Positions 17,348 through 22,492 of a stretch of DNA of 26,696 nucleotides are shown here, in pieces. The translations under genes were made by a program, and so were the position numbers. The notes below the pieces were generated by a model. The model worked only from the letters and a program-made list of their open reading frames with translations. It was not told where the DNA came from and made no database searches. The stretch is from positions 1-26,696 of the IMG/VR virus record IMGVR_UViG_3300004173_000007, one strand, 5' to 3'. The DNA comes from a virus. The stretch's first letter is position 1. Each line of letters starts with the position of its first letter.

Positions 17348-18871
17348 TTATTTAATCCTTTCAAAAAGCCAGTCCACATGGTCCTCCAACTGCTTTGGGA
17401 GGGTCCCGCGCTTATATTCGGGGTCTGTTACCATTGCGGCAAGCTCAGCGTCGAGCTCTTTAATGTTGCTGGTCGCATACTCGCTAATGTTTCGCCTTAT
17501 CCACTCGCGGCGGCCTGCCTTATCGGGCACGGCCTGCTCCATTGCTTTGGCCAAGCGCTCGGTTGAGCGCACGCTTTCACGCAAGCCAAGCGCGTGCGCT
17601 AATTCATGCACAATCGTTGCGCGCGTTTGGTCTTTTGATGATGATGAAACGGACCAACGAGCTTGGCCGGCGGCAACCCTTGCCTCATGCGAGCGCGCTT
17701 GCTCCTCGTTAAACGAGCCGCGCTTGGTTGGGCTTACTGAAAAAAAGCCCTCATTTCCAGCCCCGCCAAAATCACCGCCCCATGCGTGGCCGTTATGCCT
17801 CCCCGTGGAGCCTGCAACAAACTTAACATTGGCCCGGCTTAGCGCCTTTTTAATGTCAAAGCCTGAGGCTTGCAATTGCGCCATTGCATTGTCCACATGC
17901 GTAATCATTTCACGCATGGCTTTTGCCGAGGCGGTGTTTTGCGTAATGTCTATTGAGGTATGGCCACTCAAGCGGTGGCCTGGGTCCTTGCGTTCAATCG
18001 CTTGTAACTTGTTGTATTCCTCAAGGTGCTTTTTCATTTCCTCAGGGTTGGCATTTCCGCCGCGGACGATATGCTTGCGGTAATACTCCGTTGCCTGGCC
18101 CTGTTTAACCCCGTTGGCAAATCCCAGGCCCCAGCTTTCGCTTAGCGTTTTATGGATTTCCTCAGGCGTATGTTTGGCAAACGAGCGGCCGGCTGGCGCT
18201 TGCTTTTTAGGGCGTGGCTGGCCTTTTTTGGCTTCGCGCTCAAGTTTGGCAACTTGCTTTTTATGCGCATGGTAGGCAATCGCGTGTTGCGTTAACTCCT
18301 TTGGCCTTGCCTGCTTCCAGGGCAACCAAGCGTTATAGGCCGCCAAATGCGCGGCCATTGCCTCTTTTTCGTCCTCCAAAGTTTTTGCGTTTGCGGTCAG
18401 GTCGTTGGCTATTTTAGAAGCCGCAAGTTTTTTGGCACGCTCAAACTCGTAACTTTCCTTTGAGCCCCTGGGGTGCGGGTTTATGTCATTTGGCCCAGGC
18501 GCTTGCGTTGGAGCTGGGGCAGATGTTGGTGTTATGGTCCCCGCCGGTGCCGTTGTTGGCTTTGTTGCGGGTGCCGTAGCTCCTGAGCTTGTCGAGGTGC
18601 TGGCTTGCTTTGTTTCCGGCTTCGCTGGCCCCAACCAAATGGCTGGGGCGTGCTGGTTTTCAGTGCCGCGACGTTCACCGCTTTTGCTTTTAGGGCTTAC
18701 AACCTTGCCGTTGAGCTTGCCACCCGCGCCGCCGATAATTTGGCCAGCGCCGTTAATAAGGGCCGGCTGGCCTTTGCCATTGCCTTTGCCATTTGGGTGC
18801 AAGGTAATCCAGTGCTCGGCGTCAGTAAATCCAACCTGGCCAACGAGGCGCTTATACATTAACTTGCTCAT
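17348..18871 (-). CDS. Zincin-like metallopeptidase protein in the packaging module
   Basis: This is a 507-aa protein. The N-terminus has 'HWITLHPNGKGNGKGQPALINGAGQIIGGAGGKLNGK' (20-56), a short domain seen at the start of phage-packaged or MuF-associated proteins. A Ser/Thr/Ala/Pro-rich linker follows (about 85-130), then a charged helical region (140-300). The C-terminal domain holds HELAH (422-426), followed by 'ISEYATSNIKELDAELAAM' (462-480), where a Glu is the likely third zinc ligand. This HExxH...YA..N..E..AE layout is typical of lethal-factor-like and toxin-type zincins. It lies between TerL and portal. It may be packaged and delivered to the host, or process head proteins; both are inference. 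Confidence 0.7.
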   Translation of the reverse strand: MSKLMYKRLVGQVGFTDAEHWITLHPNGKGNGKGQPALINGAGQIIGGAGGKLNGKVVSPKSKSGERRGTENQHAPAIWLGPAKPETKQASTSTSSGATAPATKPTTAPAGTITPTSAPAPTQAPGPNDINPHPRGSKESYEFERAKKLAASKIANDLTANAKTLEDEKEAMAAHLAAYNAWLPWKQARPKELTQHAIAYHAHKKQVAKLEREAKKGQPRPKKQAPAGRSFAKHTPEEIHKTLSESWGLGFANGVKQGQATEYYRKHIVRGGNANPEEMKKHLEEYNKLQAIERKDPGHRLSGHTSIDITQNTASAKAMREMITHVDNAMAQLQASGFDIKKALSRANVKFVAGSTGRHNGHAWGGDFGGAGNEGFFSVSPTKRGSFNEEQARSHEARVAAGQARWSVSSSSKDQTRATIVHELAHALGLRESVRSTERLAKAMEQAVPDKAGRREWIRRNISEYATSNIKELDAELAAMVTDPEYKRGTLPKQLEDHVDWLFERIK

Positions 18872-18881
18872 TAAAAAATCC

Positions 18882-20339
18882 TTACTCAGCCATGCGGGCC
18901 CATGTGTCTATAATGTTGCCAGTGGCAACCATGTCGTTGATAGCGTCAACCATTGGGTCTATTTGGTCGTCGTGGTCGTGGCTGTCGTCAGGAGCAAAGC
19001 CCTCGCACTCGCCTATCAGCTCGCTTACAAATGCGGCCTCCTCCGGCAGATATACGCGGCCACTTTCAATGTAGCCCGTAACGTCCATTACCCTGGTCAG
19101 TTTGTCCTTAACGCGCTCGATTGCTTCCAATGGTATTGCGCTGGTAACACTCAAATCCTGGATTAAGCCGGTGCCGCTGGCCTTGTCCTCAATGGCCATA
19201 ACACGAAGCGCCCCATATTCCACGGGGTCCACTTGTTGATGTTTCAGCCAAAAGTCCATTGCCCGGCGTTTGAGCTCCGGCGCCTCCCACTTGCCGCGTA
19301 TTTGGTCAATCAAATATGCGTAACCGTCGGCGCCCTTGCCCCAGCATTGAAAAACTGAATAGTCGTTATGCTCTTTTACTTTTTGGGCGGTATCGGCAAA
19401 AATCTTGCGATACACTAAATGCGGCAATACGCGGTAACGCTTAAACCAGGCGCCCTTAATAATTCCGCCGCCAAGCGGTGCGGGGCGTTGTTGGTATTGG
19501 CCAGCGTAAACGTAGCTATTGTTGGCGCGCATTACTGCAAGCATGTCCGCCGTGTGTTTTGCAGGCCATAGCGGCTCGCCAATAGGTCGCCCCAGCGGGT
19601 CGTCGCTCCGGTCGTTCTCGGCCGGTAAAATCAGCGTGTCCCATTTCTCGCCGTTGCCGCCGTTCAATAGCCAGCCGGCAAGGTCGTTTTCATGCAAGCG
19701 TTGCATGATTAAAATAATCGGGGTGTTGGCCGGGTCGTTCTTGCGGCTTTCCAGTGTGTTGGTAAACCAATCAAGCACGTTTTGCCGCATTACCGGGCTG
19801 GTTGCCTCGTCGGGTTTGTGCGGGTCATCAATAATGATTGCGCCGCCAAATCCTGGGCGGTGTTTACCAGCTCCGTAGCCGGTAATCGTGCCGCCTGCAC
19901 CCGCGGCATAAACAATGCCGTTGGCCGTTGTCCGCCACTCGCCCTTAGCTGAGCTATCGGAGCGGATTGCGGTGCCAGGAAAAACAGCCGCATAACTTTC
20001 GTGCTGTATCAATTCACGCGCGGCCCAGGCGTTATTTGTGGCCAGGCCGCCGGAGTAGCTGGTTAAAATAAACTCGCTATCGGGGACCTTGCCCAGCGCC
20101 CAGGCAATGAAGTTAAGCACTAACTCGGTTTTGGAGTAGCGCGGCGGTATGTTGATAATCAGCCGCTTAACCTCGCCGCGGTAAACTTGCATGAGCTTAT
20201 CGCAAACGAGCCTATGGTGCGGAGCGCGGAGCCATTGAAAGCCCTTGCGCTCTTTAAACATGAAGCGGGCAAAGGTATATAAATCCTCCCTTGCCGCGTC
20301 CAGGATAACCGCGCGCTCCTGGCTCGTTAATTCGTTCAT
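18882..20339 (-). CDS. terL: Terminase large subunit
   Basis: This is a 485-aa protein. The ATPase domain shows an atypical Walker A 'PPRYSKTE' (65-72) and Walker B 'GGAIIIDDP' (165-173, with Asp171/Asp172), then a 'IILIMQRLHENDLAG' coupling region (208-222). The C-terminal RNase-H-like nuclease shows Asp316 in 'IFADTAQK', 'AIEDKASGTGLIQDL' (382-395), and a 'HDHDDQID' cluster (454-461). It drives DNA into the prohead and cuts the concatemer. It follows the small subunit with 2 nt between, and starts MNELTSQERAVILDAAREDLYTFARFMFKE, a typical N-terminus. All motifs appear intact, so it should be active. Confidence 0.95.
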   Translation of the reverse strand: MNELTSQERAVILDAAREDLYTFARFMFKERKGFQWLRAPHHRLVCDKLMQVYRGEVKRLIINIPPRYSKTELVLNFIAWALGKVPDSEFILTSYSGGLATNNAWAARELIQHESYAAVFPGTAIRSDSSAKGEWRTTANGIVYAAGAGGTITGYGAGKHRPGFGGAIIIDDPHKPDEATSPVMRQNVLDWFTNTLESRKNDPANTPIILIMQRLHENDLAGWLLNGGNGEKWDTLILPAENDRSDDPLGRPIGEPLWPAKHTADMLAVMRANNSYVYAGQYQQRPAPLGGGIIKGAWFKRYRVLPHLVYRKIFADTAQKVKEHNDYSVFQCWGKGADGYAYLIDQIRGKWEAPELKRRAMDFWLKHQQVDPVEYGALRVMAIEDKASGTGLIQDLSVTSAIPLEAIERVKDKLTRVMDVTGYIESGRVYLPEEAAFVSELIGECEGFAPDDSHDHDDQIDPMVDAINDMVATGNIIDTWARMAE

Positions 20340-20341
20340 GT

Positions 20342-20782
20342 CTAAACCTTATCAAGTGCCGCGTTGAGCGTCGCCTTGTATTGCTCCGGTGTCATGTTGT
20401 GGGTGGCCGTTTGTATCGGTCCGCCATTGCTCCCAGTTAGCTCAACAATCTGCTTGTCAAAGCCTAATAACTTGGCTTTGGCCATAGTCGCCGCGGTGGC
20501 CGCCGCCGCTTGTACTGTTTCAGCACTAAGCGCCGCAAGCCTGTTTTCGTCTAACTCTCTGATTAAGTCGTCAACTGTGATTTTGTGGCGCTCAATAATC
20601 GGCTTGCGTAACTGTTCAAGCCTTGCCGTAATCTTGCCGTTGTCTAAAACCTCTTTAGCCTTACGATTTACGGAGGCATCTTTCATTTTATCGACGTTGT
20701 ACGCTCTGCGATAAGCCTCACTAGCATTTCCAGTTTCAATATACGCAATGCAAAAGTTTTCTTGTTTTTCAGTTAAATTCAT
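20342..20782 (-). CDS. terS: Terminase small subunit (Terminase_2 family), complete
   Basis: This is a 146-aa protein: 'LTEKQENFCIAYIETGNASEAYRRAYNVDKMKDASVNRKAKEVLDNGKITARLEQLR' is the classical N-terminal DNA-binding HTH of Terminase_2, followed by an oligomerisation helix region (about 70-110) and a C-terminal 'TPEQYKATLNAALDKV' tail. It recognises the packaging site and recruits TerL. Its 5' third (about 20640-20782) is visibly AT-rich like the nuclease gene next to it, whereas the 3' part matches the surrounding phage, hinting at a hybrid gene. It begins 3 nt after the fused GIY-YIG gene that carries a second, different TerS N-terminus. Confidence 0.9.
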   Translation of the reverse strand: MNLTEKQENFCIAYIETGNASEAYRRAYNVDKMKDASVNRKAKEVLDNGKITARLEQLRKPIIERHKITVDDLIRELDENRLAALSAETVQAAAATAATMAKAKLLGFDKQIVELTGSNGGPIQTATHNMTPEQYKATLNAALDKV

Positions 20783-20785
20783 TTA

Positions 20786-21391
20786 TCACCTCGCAATCGT
20801 TGTGAGGTTTCTTTTAATGTAGTTATAAAAAAACTCAGCATTTCCAAAAACTCTATTTACTAGGCTTAAACTCTCTTTATCAATTTCGCAAACCCACGCA
20901 TCAAAAGGCTTTAATTTATCAAGCAACAACCTCGCTTTAAATTTAATTTTGTCCGCTGTTTGCTCTATGCCATTGGCTATATTTGTTATGCCAGTTTGCT
21001 TAAAGCTATTTATTAAATATTTTTCCAATGCAAAAGCATCGCTTTCGCTAAGTTCGTCAACTAAAACTTTTTCAATTACTTTATTTCCAAGCTGTTCAAT
21101 CTCGTAAATTTCTGAAAATTTATTTAAATTGTTTACAACGCCTCTATTTACCTCGGCTCTGTGTTTAAGCAAACGTCTGCCTTTGCCTTTTCCAATGTAA
21201 ATTATTTTTTTAGTAAATGGATTTATTAAAAGGTAAACGTAATAACCAGTACCAAAGCGCTTTAATTCATAACCAGCACGGATAGCCGCTTGCGTTGCGT
21301 TCAAATCAACCAAATACTCTTTTACGAAAAGCATTTGTTTTGGTGTTAGTTTTTTATCGCCGTCATTGGACGGCTTTTTTACGGTCGTCAT
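20786..21391 (-). CDS. TerS N-terminus fused to a GIY-YIG endonuclease
   Basis: The protein has 201 aa from the ATG at 21391; the longer frame to 21442 would read through a terminator hairpin and is rejected. Residues 13-41 (KKLTPKQMLFVKEYLVDLNATQAAIRAGY) are the start of a Terminase_2 small subunit. Right after 'AGY' the sequence becomes a GIY-YIG nuclease: YVY at 51-53, YIG at 65-67 in IIYIGKGKGRR, basic Arg72/73, likely metal ligand Glu123 in FALEKYLI, and TNIANG at 136-141. This matches the LEM3/COG3680-like branch. The nuclease part is AT-rich and foreign in look. An intact TerS follows 3 nt later. It is probably a homing-type endonuclease that invaded terS; the HTH may steer it to the packaging region. 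Confidence 0.8.
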   Translation of the reverse strand: MTTVKKPSNDGDKKLTPKQMLFVKEYLVDLNATQAAIRAGYELKRFGTGYYVYLLINPFTKKIIYIGKGKGRRLLKHRAEVNRGVVNNLNKFSEIYEIEQLGNKVIEKVLVDELSESDAFALEKYLINSFKQTGITNIANGIEQTADKIKFKARLLLDKLKPFDAWVCEIDKESLSLVNRVFGNAEFFYNYIKRNLTTIAR

Positions 21392-21401
21392 ATCAAGCCT
21401 T

Positions 21402-21427
21402 AAAAAAACCCCTGGCCGAAGCCAGGG
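21402..21427 (-). terminator. Intrinsic terminator before the TerS/GIY-YIG gene
   Basis: Minus strand CCCTGGC-TTCG-GCCAGGG followed by GTTTTTTT: a 7-bp stem with a UUCG tetraloop and a 7-nt U-run. It lies 11 nt before the ATG at 21391, so genes of the late operon must be read through it. It is a textbook terminator. Confidence 0.9.
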
Positions 21428-21429
21428 CA

Positions 21430-21645
21430 GGAGGAGCCCCATGTCAGTGGGGTAGCATCATCAACAAATGCAAGGGAGGGCACCGCGTTGCTTAGGAGCA
21501 AAGGGAGGCCCGGCATGGATAGCCGGAGCGGTGCCCAAATGGCGCCCGGCGCTTTCCTCTGTGATAGCAGTTAAGCGGCGCCGGGTCTTAATACTTATGC
21601 GGCTGGCAATTACTGTTAACCAACTCATTTGCCGGCCTGTGCCGG
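21430..21645. other. GC-rich cluster of hairpins upstream of terminase (possible cos/pac site or structured RNA)
   Basis: No convincing gene lies here. Inverted repeats found by eye (plus coordinates): CCCCA/TGGGG at 21437-41 with 21448-52; a 9-bp outer stem GGGCACCGC (21478-86) with GCGGTGCCC (21528-36) enclosing two small hairpins, TTGC/GCAA (21488-91 with 21498-501) and CCGGC/GCCGG (21510-14 with 21522-26); CCCGGCGC/GCGCCGGG (21545-52 with 21578-85); CCGGC/GCCGG (21632-36 with 21641-45). The plus strand shows GGA in loops; the minus strand shows CCTCC-type runs. A site just upstream of terS is a natural place for packaging recognition. Confidence 0.5.
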
Positions 21646-21681
21646 TGTTCGTCATGCGTTGCAATTGCCATGCGTATAAAT

Positions 21682-21711
21682 AAAAAAGCCCACAATTAAG
21701 CGGGCTTTTTG
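21682..21711. terminator. Bidirectional intrinsic terminator (tR'-like)
   Basis: Inverted repeat AAAAAGCCC(AC)AATTAA(GC)GGGCTTTTT with a T-run on both strands: minus reads GCCCGCTTAATTGTGGGCTTTTTT, plus reads GCCCACAATTAAGCGGGCTTTTT. It lies about 110 nt downstream of the predicted minus-strand promoter start, so it would end a short RNA unless it is antiterminated. Confidence 0.85.
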
Positions 21712-21816
21712 TCGTCTGAATTAGCCAGCATTGCCGTGGCAACGCTTTGGAATTTATGAAAATTTATTTCATTTTAATAACCCTCGAAAGGTTTAAGTCG
21801 CACTAATTGCAAGAGT
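21682..21816 (-). ncRNA. Possible short late leader RNA (6S-like of lambda)
   Basis: Between a strong predicted promoter (start about 21816) and the terminator at 21711-21682 there is no coding frame of note. The transcript would be about 110-135 nt. Lambda makes a similar short RNA from pR' that ends at tR' when Q is absent. Inferred from layout only. Confidence 0.45.
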
Positions 21817-21822
21817 AGAAAT

Positions 21823-21851
21823 AATTTACTTTACTTGTCCCAGGCTGTCAA
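21823..21851 (-). promoter_or_regulatory. Strong sigma70-type promoter (late promoter candidate)
   Basis: Minus strand: -35 TTGACA (21851-21846, perfect consensus), a 17-nt spacer, and -10 TAAATT (21828-21823, 4 of 6). It lies directly downstream of the 201-aa Q-position gene and points toward terminase and the whole late region. It is the best promoter-like sequence I find for the late genes. Confidence 0.65.
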
Positions 21852-21864
21852 TGCATAAATGGAT
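21851..21864. promoter_or_regulatory. Operator-like inverted repeat at late promoter (site 1)
   Basis: ATGCATAAATGGAT has two 6-bp half-sites around AA with one mismatch. It shares CATAAATGGATA with the site in the early promoter at 25810. It touches the upstream edge of the -35 element, so a bound protein could either block or activate. Confidence 0.4.
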
Positions 21865-21880
21865 AATATTATAAATATTT

Positions 21881-21894
21881 ATTCATTTACGGAT
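21881..21894. promoter_or_regulatory. Operator-like weaker inverted repeat (site 2)
   Basis: ATTCATTTACGGAT, the same 14-bp layout with two half-site mismatches, 30 bp from site 1 and overlapping the stop of the 201-aa gene. The region is AT-rich, so chance is possible. Confidence 0.25.
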
Positions 21895-22492
21895 TTGGCA
21901 CAATCCCCTCCTGTTGAAATAATGGCGTCAATTGGTCAATCCCGCGGTTTTCCAGGGCGTTTAATGTGAGTTTGATTTGTGGATAAACTCGGCATAATTC
22001 GCTTTTACTGCCGCCGGCCTGCTCCTCTATATCCCTAAACGTCGGCCGCACTGGCGCAATTTCGCCGTGTGCCTTTGCAATGAGCCAAATAATGGCATTG
22101 CTAGGGACGCTTGAAAATCGCGGCGCTATGAGCCTGGAAAGCCTGCGCATGGCGTCTATGCGCTCAGCACTAAACACATGCACCCGCGGACGGTTGCTTT
22201 TTTCTATGGTTTTAGTCAGCCCGTACTTGGATTTGATTGCCCAGCCCTCCGGCCCAGGCAAATGGTGGTTGATTGCGCCGCGTATCATGGCGGCTTGTCC
22301 GCGCACTTCCAGGGCCGTTAATCCTCCAAAGTCAATCGTGCTTTCGCTACGGTCGCCGGTGGCCAGGCCCAGCTCCTCAAGTCTGCGTCGGATAATCTTG
22401 CCCATTGCGCTCTCGGCGCCTGGTTCCAGCGCTTCCATTAGAAAACTGAAATGCACGGCCTGGGTGGTATTTTGAAAAATCGGATTATCCAT
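21887..22492 (-). CDS. Unknown protein in the position of a late regulator (Q-like?)
   Basis: This is a 201-aa protein: MDNPIFQNTTQAVHFSFLMEALEPGAESAMGKIIRRRLEEL and so on. The middle 'TIDFGGLTALEVRGQAAMIRGAINHHLPGPEGWAIKSKYG' is distinctive but I cannot name the family. The last third (about 150-188, TFRDIEEQAGGSKSELCRVYPQIKLTLNALENRG) resembles a helix-turn-helix. A strong Shine-Dalgarno (GGAGG) lies 5-7 nt before the ATG. It is the last gene of the early operon, and just after it comes a strong promoter followed by a terminator, the lambda Q-pR'-tR' layout. By this position it may be an antiterminator or late activator, but sequence alone does not prove it. Confidence 0.55.
   Translation of the reverse strand: MDNPIFQNTTQAVHFSFLMEALEPGAESAMGKIIRRRLEELGLATGDRSESTIDFGGLTALEVRGQAAMIRGAINHHLPGPEGWAIKSKYGLTKTIEKSNRPRVHVFSAERIDAMRRLSRLIAPRFSSVPSNAIIWLIAKAHGEIAPVRPTFRDIEEQAGGSKSELCRVYPQIKLTLNALENRGIDQLTPLFQQEGIVPNP

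Follow-up and report, generated by a model that had tools for sequence, protein, structure and literature searches.

A GIY-YIG nuclease fused to the start of a phage terS gene, and a hybrid TerS beside it, as parts of a probable mobile cassette

At one phage packaging locus, the start of a small terminase gene (terS) runs in frame into a GIY-YIG nuclease immediately ahead of a further TerS gene, which raises the question of how this arrangement arose and what the fused TerS residues are for. The locus lies in the window, by which we mean the whole 26,696-nucleotide stretch of viral DNA analysed here (IMG/VR record IMGVR_UViG_3300004173_000007). The ORF at 20786-21391 (-) encodes 201 aa, of which residues 1-41 are a Terminase_2-type N-terminus, in frame with the nuclease. 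Pfam Terminase_2 matched residues 15-45 (E 1e-10), Pfam LEM-3_GIY-YIG residues 57-142 (E 3e-10) and phrog_5356, a GIY-YIG nuclease family, residues 49-149 (E 1e-15), while the ORF that begins after a gap of 3 nt scored as TerS (Terminase_2, E 3e-14; phrog_51, E 2e-22). A previous reading of the locus from its letters (the sequence-only reading) had described both the fusion and its distance to the neighbouring TerS correctly. The GIY-YIG motif residues (Y51/Y53, Y65-I-G67, R73, E123 and N137), which form an intact catalytic motif within a homing-nuclease fold, were invariant across a 17-member alignment. The AlphaFold2 model of the fusion protein (mean pLDDT 86) matched GIY-YIG structures best, with CMoRE/PD-T4-3 (9u75, 9u7u) first among the solved structures and the I-TevI catalytic domain next (Foldseek probability 1.0, with a weak E of 0.06). 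The nuclease core has a GC content of 0.32 compared to 0.50 for the window, which fits a foreign origin. The Terminase_2 portion covers the first 31 of 141 profile positions only and thus lacks a complete helix-turn-helix (HTH) and the oligomerisation domain.

A sequencing error splitting a longer gene, an alternative raised in the sequence-only reading, or a chimeric assembly is very unlikely, because the identical junction was found in two further IMG/VR contigs from other samples or metagenomes (99.98% DNA identity over 5.1 and 8.4 kb), giving three contigs with this junction, to which two of the L140 group (see below) can be added. A group I intron was also rejected, as no Rfam match was found within 20300-21900 and the joined flanks would not give back one terS.

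The state before the event can be read from an uninvaded relative, L004, whose TerL is 99% identical to that of the window at the amino acid level and which has a single ordinary TerS of 170 aa. The first 41 codons of L004 terS match the fusion, while the last ~29 codons match the downstream TerS of the window. In the DNA alignment, the replacement segment of the window (Table 1) occupies the place of ~304 bp in L004 (about 670-973), with the left break after GCT GGT TA (Ala-Gly-Tyr) and the right break at AAT GGC GGA CC (Asn-Gly-Gly-Pro). The intact ancestral terS type is also present in more distant TerL relatives (L061-L064 and L068), so the window arrangement is the derived state. The stub, i.e., the captured start of terS, is ~98-99% identical in DNA to the terS of its own phage group, and the ~440 bp left flank differs from L004 by only two substitutions, both within the last 24 nt before the junction; this clustering, noticed after the fact, has a chance of about 0.003 and hints that the donor may already have been stub-fused.

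Table 1 Features of the packaging locus, in window coordinates.
Feature	Position	Strand	Basis
Upstream flank common to L004	21392..21709		DNA comparison
terS stub, first 41 codons of resident Terminase_2-type terS	21269..21391	-	Pfam Terminase_2; L004 comparison
Ala-Gly-Tyr codons GCT GGT TAT, left junction	21269..21277	-	Same codons in L140/L389; L218/L068 (more distant comparator)
GIY-YIG (LEM-3/CMoRE-like) nuclease, residues 42-201, in frame with stub	20786..21268	-	Families, fold, GC
Replacement segment, 841 bp: nuclease and foreign TerS core	20429..21269		DNA alignment with L004
Hybrid TerS: foreign N-terminal/central part (20429-20782) and resident C-terminal tail (20342-20428)	20342..20782	-	Terminase_2, phrog_51, L004 DNA
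Native terS tail past right junction (NGGPIQTATHNMTPEQYKATLNAALDKV)	20342..20428	-	L004 comparison
Resident TerL	18882..20339	-	99% aa identical to L004 TerL

A second pair showed the same layout. L140 carries a terS stub fused to a GIY-YIG nuclease, a hybrid TerS and TerL in this order, while eight contigs whose TerL is 97-100% identical to that of L140 (L389-L396, several of them near-identical to one another) have an intact terS at that place. In L140, the left break again lies within the Ala-Gly-Tyr codons, after GCG GG, so that the left breakpoints of the window and L140 lie within 4 nt at corresponding codons, and the right break falls in the corresponding C-terminal motif, KVELSGDKNNPLQ. 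The flanks are about 90-96% identical between L140 and L389-L396 and, judged by flank identity, both insertions are recent. The two nucleases share ~45% aa identity and no meaningful DNA similarity. In a more distant comparison, the unfused terS of L068 matches the stub of L218 (an Alcaligenaceae MAG) and the 31 nt ahead of it at 82% DNA identity, and the two diverge after the same Ala-Gly-Tyr codons; among 268 genomes of the family of L218, only three weaker matches to the nuclease were found beyond its own genome.

Comparison with uninvaded relatives, which the sequence-only reading had suggested, shows at the level of aligned DNA that in two phage groups the middle of a resident Terminase_2-type terS was replaced, with the left breakpoint at the turn between helices 2 and 3 (the Ala-Gly-Tyr codons) and the right one in a conserved motif near the C-terminus. 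These borders place the break after the N-terminal helices and support the earlier idea that the resident terS was broken and that a second TerS takes over. The nuclease is present or absent at a fixed site in close relatives (window vs L004, L140 vs L389-L396), the pattern by which homing genes are recognised. The Ala-Gly-Tyr codons, a putative nuclease target, are where the conserved stretch of terS is broken off and where the foreign core has a different sequence. That a second phage group shows the event at these three codons suggests a mobile cassette which disrupts an essential gene while supplying a substitute for it.

Because its last ~29 codons are the L004-type C-terminus, encoded by DNA identical to that of L004, the downstream TerS is a hybrid of a foreign core and a native tail. 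The earlier description of a "second, complete and different TerS" therefore holds for the core and fails for the tail, which belongs to the very terS whose start is fused to the nuclease. Apparently the incoming terS works, and the kept tail probably preserves its compatibility with the native TerL.

We consider it likely that the GIY-YIG homing-type nuclease of this locus and a divergent terS core together form a mobile cassette. During co-infection, the nuclease would cut an uninvaded Terminase_2 terS at or near the conserved Thr-Gln-Ala-Ala-Ile-Arg-Ala-Gly-Tyr codons, and repair from the invaded genome would copy in the nuclease and the terS core together, with homology provided by the stub on the left and by the C-terminal motif on the right. 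In the arrangement seen in both phage groups, the resident start region is the leader of the nuclease, providing a start codon and upstream signals, and the incoming core and the resident tail form one hybrid TerS ahead of the resident TerL. The foreign core, which would not contain the target, could rescue packaging, and the kept tail could preserve the fit to the native TerL. The stubs of the window, L140 and L218 match different resident genes in DNA (L004, L389 and L068, respectively), and it is possible that a pre-fused cassette moves by homology through its stub. Whether the fusion was made anew each time or was pre-fused, the cassette moves either way, and the two variants differ only in this point. 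Against the cassette model, a different way of entry is needed for members without stubs, and the closest solved relatives (CMoRE) are defence enzymes rather than proven homing enzymes.

A stronger form of the cassette model, which we put forward tentatively, is that of a natural cleave-and-rescue element, in which the nuclease would cut Terminase_2 terS genes at three highly conserved codons, the foreign core would be the uncuttable rescue, and the stub would serve as start codon and homology arm; such a cassette would spread through packaging loci and disable the packaging of co-infecting phages that lack it. Also against the cassette model, no donor phage with both the same nuclease and the TerS core was found. 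A pattern search of IMG/VR gave no donor with the same nuclease, and neither did 72,556 plasmids and 50,697 phage records, although one may have been missed. Likewise, no nuclease was seen upstream of the window-type TerS in three named phages checked (Bordetella, Leptolyngbya and Acinetobacter), and no isolate phage record covered 80% of the fusion protein, although an unfused relative of the nuclease lies upstream of TerL in Rhizobium phage RHph_Y1_10.

The nuclease family, gathered by two alignment-based searches and an HMM scan, repeatedly occupies this position. About 30 non-redundant relatives lie directly before a small ORF in the terS position and TerL. The small ORF scored as TerS in 22 of 32 cases, with the TerS neighbours falling into at least three unrelated families (phrog_51, phrog_309 and phrog_1482); the remaining 10 were short and had no TerS match, some of them belonging to phrog_11043 or phrog_15261 (function unknown). 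Genes further downstream scored as TerL in nine of ten tested. Terminase_2-like stubs were recognised by eye in about 16 lineages, and 7 of 17 aligned nucleases reached Pfam Terminase_2 at E 0.01. On the nuclease tree, the fused label needs ~5 changes, of which the well-supported branches alone force only one. Family members without a Terminase_2-like stub begin a few codons ahead of the nuclease core, whereas no start codon was found close ahead of the core in the Ala-Gly-Tyr-class fusions checked, so that these need the terS start. We rejected the idea that the nuclease family has long carried the stub as a uniform domain, or as a general GIY-YIG N-terminus unrelated to TerS (considered in the sequence-only reading), since stub lengths and residues vary and unfused terS genes match the stubs of the window, L140 and L218 at the DNA level.

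The nuclease keeps its place ahead of terS even where the TerS types are unrelated, and it is under strong purifying selection (Ka/Ks about 0.07-0.2 in the measurable pairs). Both findings speak for the cassette model but would also suit an accessory packaging nuclease that acts at cos/pac alongside terminase and is passed on together with its terS, for which HK97 gp74, an HNH enzyme encoded upstream of terS, offers a precedent (discussed in PMC10448857). This reading is unlikely, as close relatives with intact packaging genes (L004, L389-L396) lack the nuclease, which argues against a general need for it. Slightly less probable still is passive mosaicism, in which ordinary recombination swapped the terS core and carried the neighbouring nuclease along, the fusion being a by-product with no role at terS. 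Core swaps do occur in this way: the Bordetella avium phages IFTN4 (L014), IFTN9 (L386) and IFTN8 (L387) have ~95% identical flanks and different terS cores (IFTN4 and IFTN8 being 95% identical downstream), joined at the same C-terminal Gly-Gly-Pro motif in the absence of the nuclease, so the nuclease need not cause core exchange. Similarly, the TerS of L060 (4461-5003), a relative with an 85% TerL, has an unrelated core but keeps the leader MTTVKKPSKDG and the Gly-Gly-Pro-Ile-Gln motif, and a further core swap was seen in L018. Under the cassette model, the right exchange would use the motif that also serves these nuclease-free swaps. What passive mosaicism does not account for is the left breakpoint repeated in the same codons with divergent nucleases, the repeated adjoining of nuclease and terS, and the strong selection on the nuclease.

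The sequence-only reading had favoured a terminase-guided interference nuclease, in which the fused TerS helices direct the nuclease to the packaging DNA of rival phages. In its favour, the helices of the stub are predicted with confidence, and Odn of phage ICP1 offers a precedent, being a homing-type nuclease thought to have acquired a RepA_N domain with which it cuts a satellite origin (PMC10448857). The structure of the captured region speaks against such targeting. In SF6 TerS, a sequence relative of L004 TerS (3zqp, E 2e-14), helices 2 and 3 form the HTH; the turn between them and the beginning of helix 3 touch the DNA, K48 is important for binding, and the DNA-binding domains in isolation show weak binding of low sequence specificity (PMC4737164). 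In the model of L004 TerS, which has modest overall confidence and values of 80-94 over the first 70 residues past a disordered start, helices span residues 17-29, 32-38, 46-55 and 57-72, whereas the stub stops at Y41, ahead of helix 3. The stub comprises only 9-15 residues in L141, L211 and L308 and is absent in L147, L220 and L311, all of which still precede terS, and it is under weaker protein constraint than the nuclease core (two informative pairs with small counts). The missing DNA-contacting helix and the short or absent stubs argue against HTH-guided targeting, which makes the interference reading improbable; the stub would mainly serve translation start and homology. A phage-borne defence-type restriction nuclease against phages with modified DNA is very improbable, for although CMoRE provides the best solved relatives and PADLOC reported PD-T4-3 (E 8e-12), the window protein lacks the acidic autoinhibitory loop (AEVNRGVVNN vs the negatively charged GEVAAADDDD in CMoRE) and the C-terminal modification-sensing domain, and CMoRE proteins form a separate clade (99/98).

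Likeness to CMoRE/PD-T4-3 (PMC12923530; PDB 9u75, 9u7u) lies in the structure and in the GIYxY-YIG motif (GYYVY...YIG in the window); the alignment stops at CMoRE residue ~116, past which the window protein has only ~55 helical residues, and CMoRE is a stand-alone defence gene while the window nuclease sits at a phage packaging locus. In layout, the closest known kinds are fungal mobile-ORF gene hybrids and phage "HEG-islands". In the fungal mitochondrial mobile ORFs (Allomyces atp6; Glomus atp6, atp9, cox2 and nad3; PMC3630166), an endonuclease ORF in an essential gene likewise brings a foreign gene part that forms a hybrid gene, and the displaced native part stays alongside; the likeness concerns layout and not descent. 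In the fungal elements, the native start receives a foreign C-terminus and the native C-terminal part is pushed aside. The window is the mirror image: it is the native start that has moved onto the nuclease, while the native tail has received a foreign N-terminal core, in a phage rather than in mitochondria and with a LEM-3-like GIY-YIG enzyme. The nucleases of HEG-islands and exchange boundaries lie beside terminase and essential genes and move with cargo alleles, but belong to the T5orf172 and HNH families; in the passages of PMC10448857 consulted, we found no description of an in-frame fusion to a broken resident gene with a rebuilt hybrid terS. Competition by a homing nuclease with a co-infecting phage has been demonstrated for PhiPA3 gp210 (PMC11620839), and cutting the gene of a co-infecting phage gives the kind of advantage expected for the window nuclease; gp210 is an HNH enzyme in an intron, while no intron was found at the present locus. 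Within the open-access papers searched, no account emerged of a LEM-3-like GIY-YIG cassette that is linked to terS and rebuilds it as a hybrid.

With two independent before/after pairs that have nearly the same borders, nuclease-driven terS replacement becomes directly testable. If true, the cassette model would account for the way in which phages exchange the part of their packaging machine that recognises DNA but retain the part assumed to fit the motor, and the cassette would be a parallel in nature to engineered cleave-and-rescue drives. The comparison also locates, at phage packaging loci, a branch of LEM-3/CMoRE-like GIY-YIG nucleases that is mostly unannotated.

Several minor observations were made in the comparison set. 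In RHph_Y1_10 (L299:2995-4461), two GIY-YIG genes bracket a small ORF in the terS position just before TerL. Between L142 and L312, and between L143 and L144, the nuclease and most of the next ORF are common as one block (88% and 79% DNA identity, respectively), which ends inside the 3' part of that ORF; TerL differs and the portal is related again. In L155 (4496-6363), TerL downstream of an unfused GIY-YIG/terS pair has an apparent intein-like insertion, as judged by eye. A related GIY-YIG domain occurs in phiST2_0371 of Vibrio phage phi-ST2 (L017:1992-3650), a single 552-aa protein in which it is fused to a putative adenine methyltransferase-like region (NPPY motif). Finally, the window gene between TerL and portal (17348-18871, -) shares its N-terminal ~65 residues with L004, while its metallopeptidase-like C-terminal end is swapped, with HELAHALG in the window compared to HEYGHQLD in L004 and L018.
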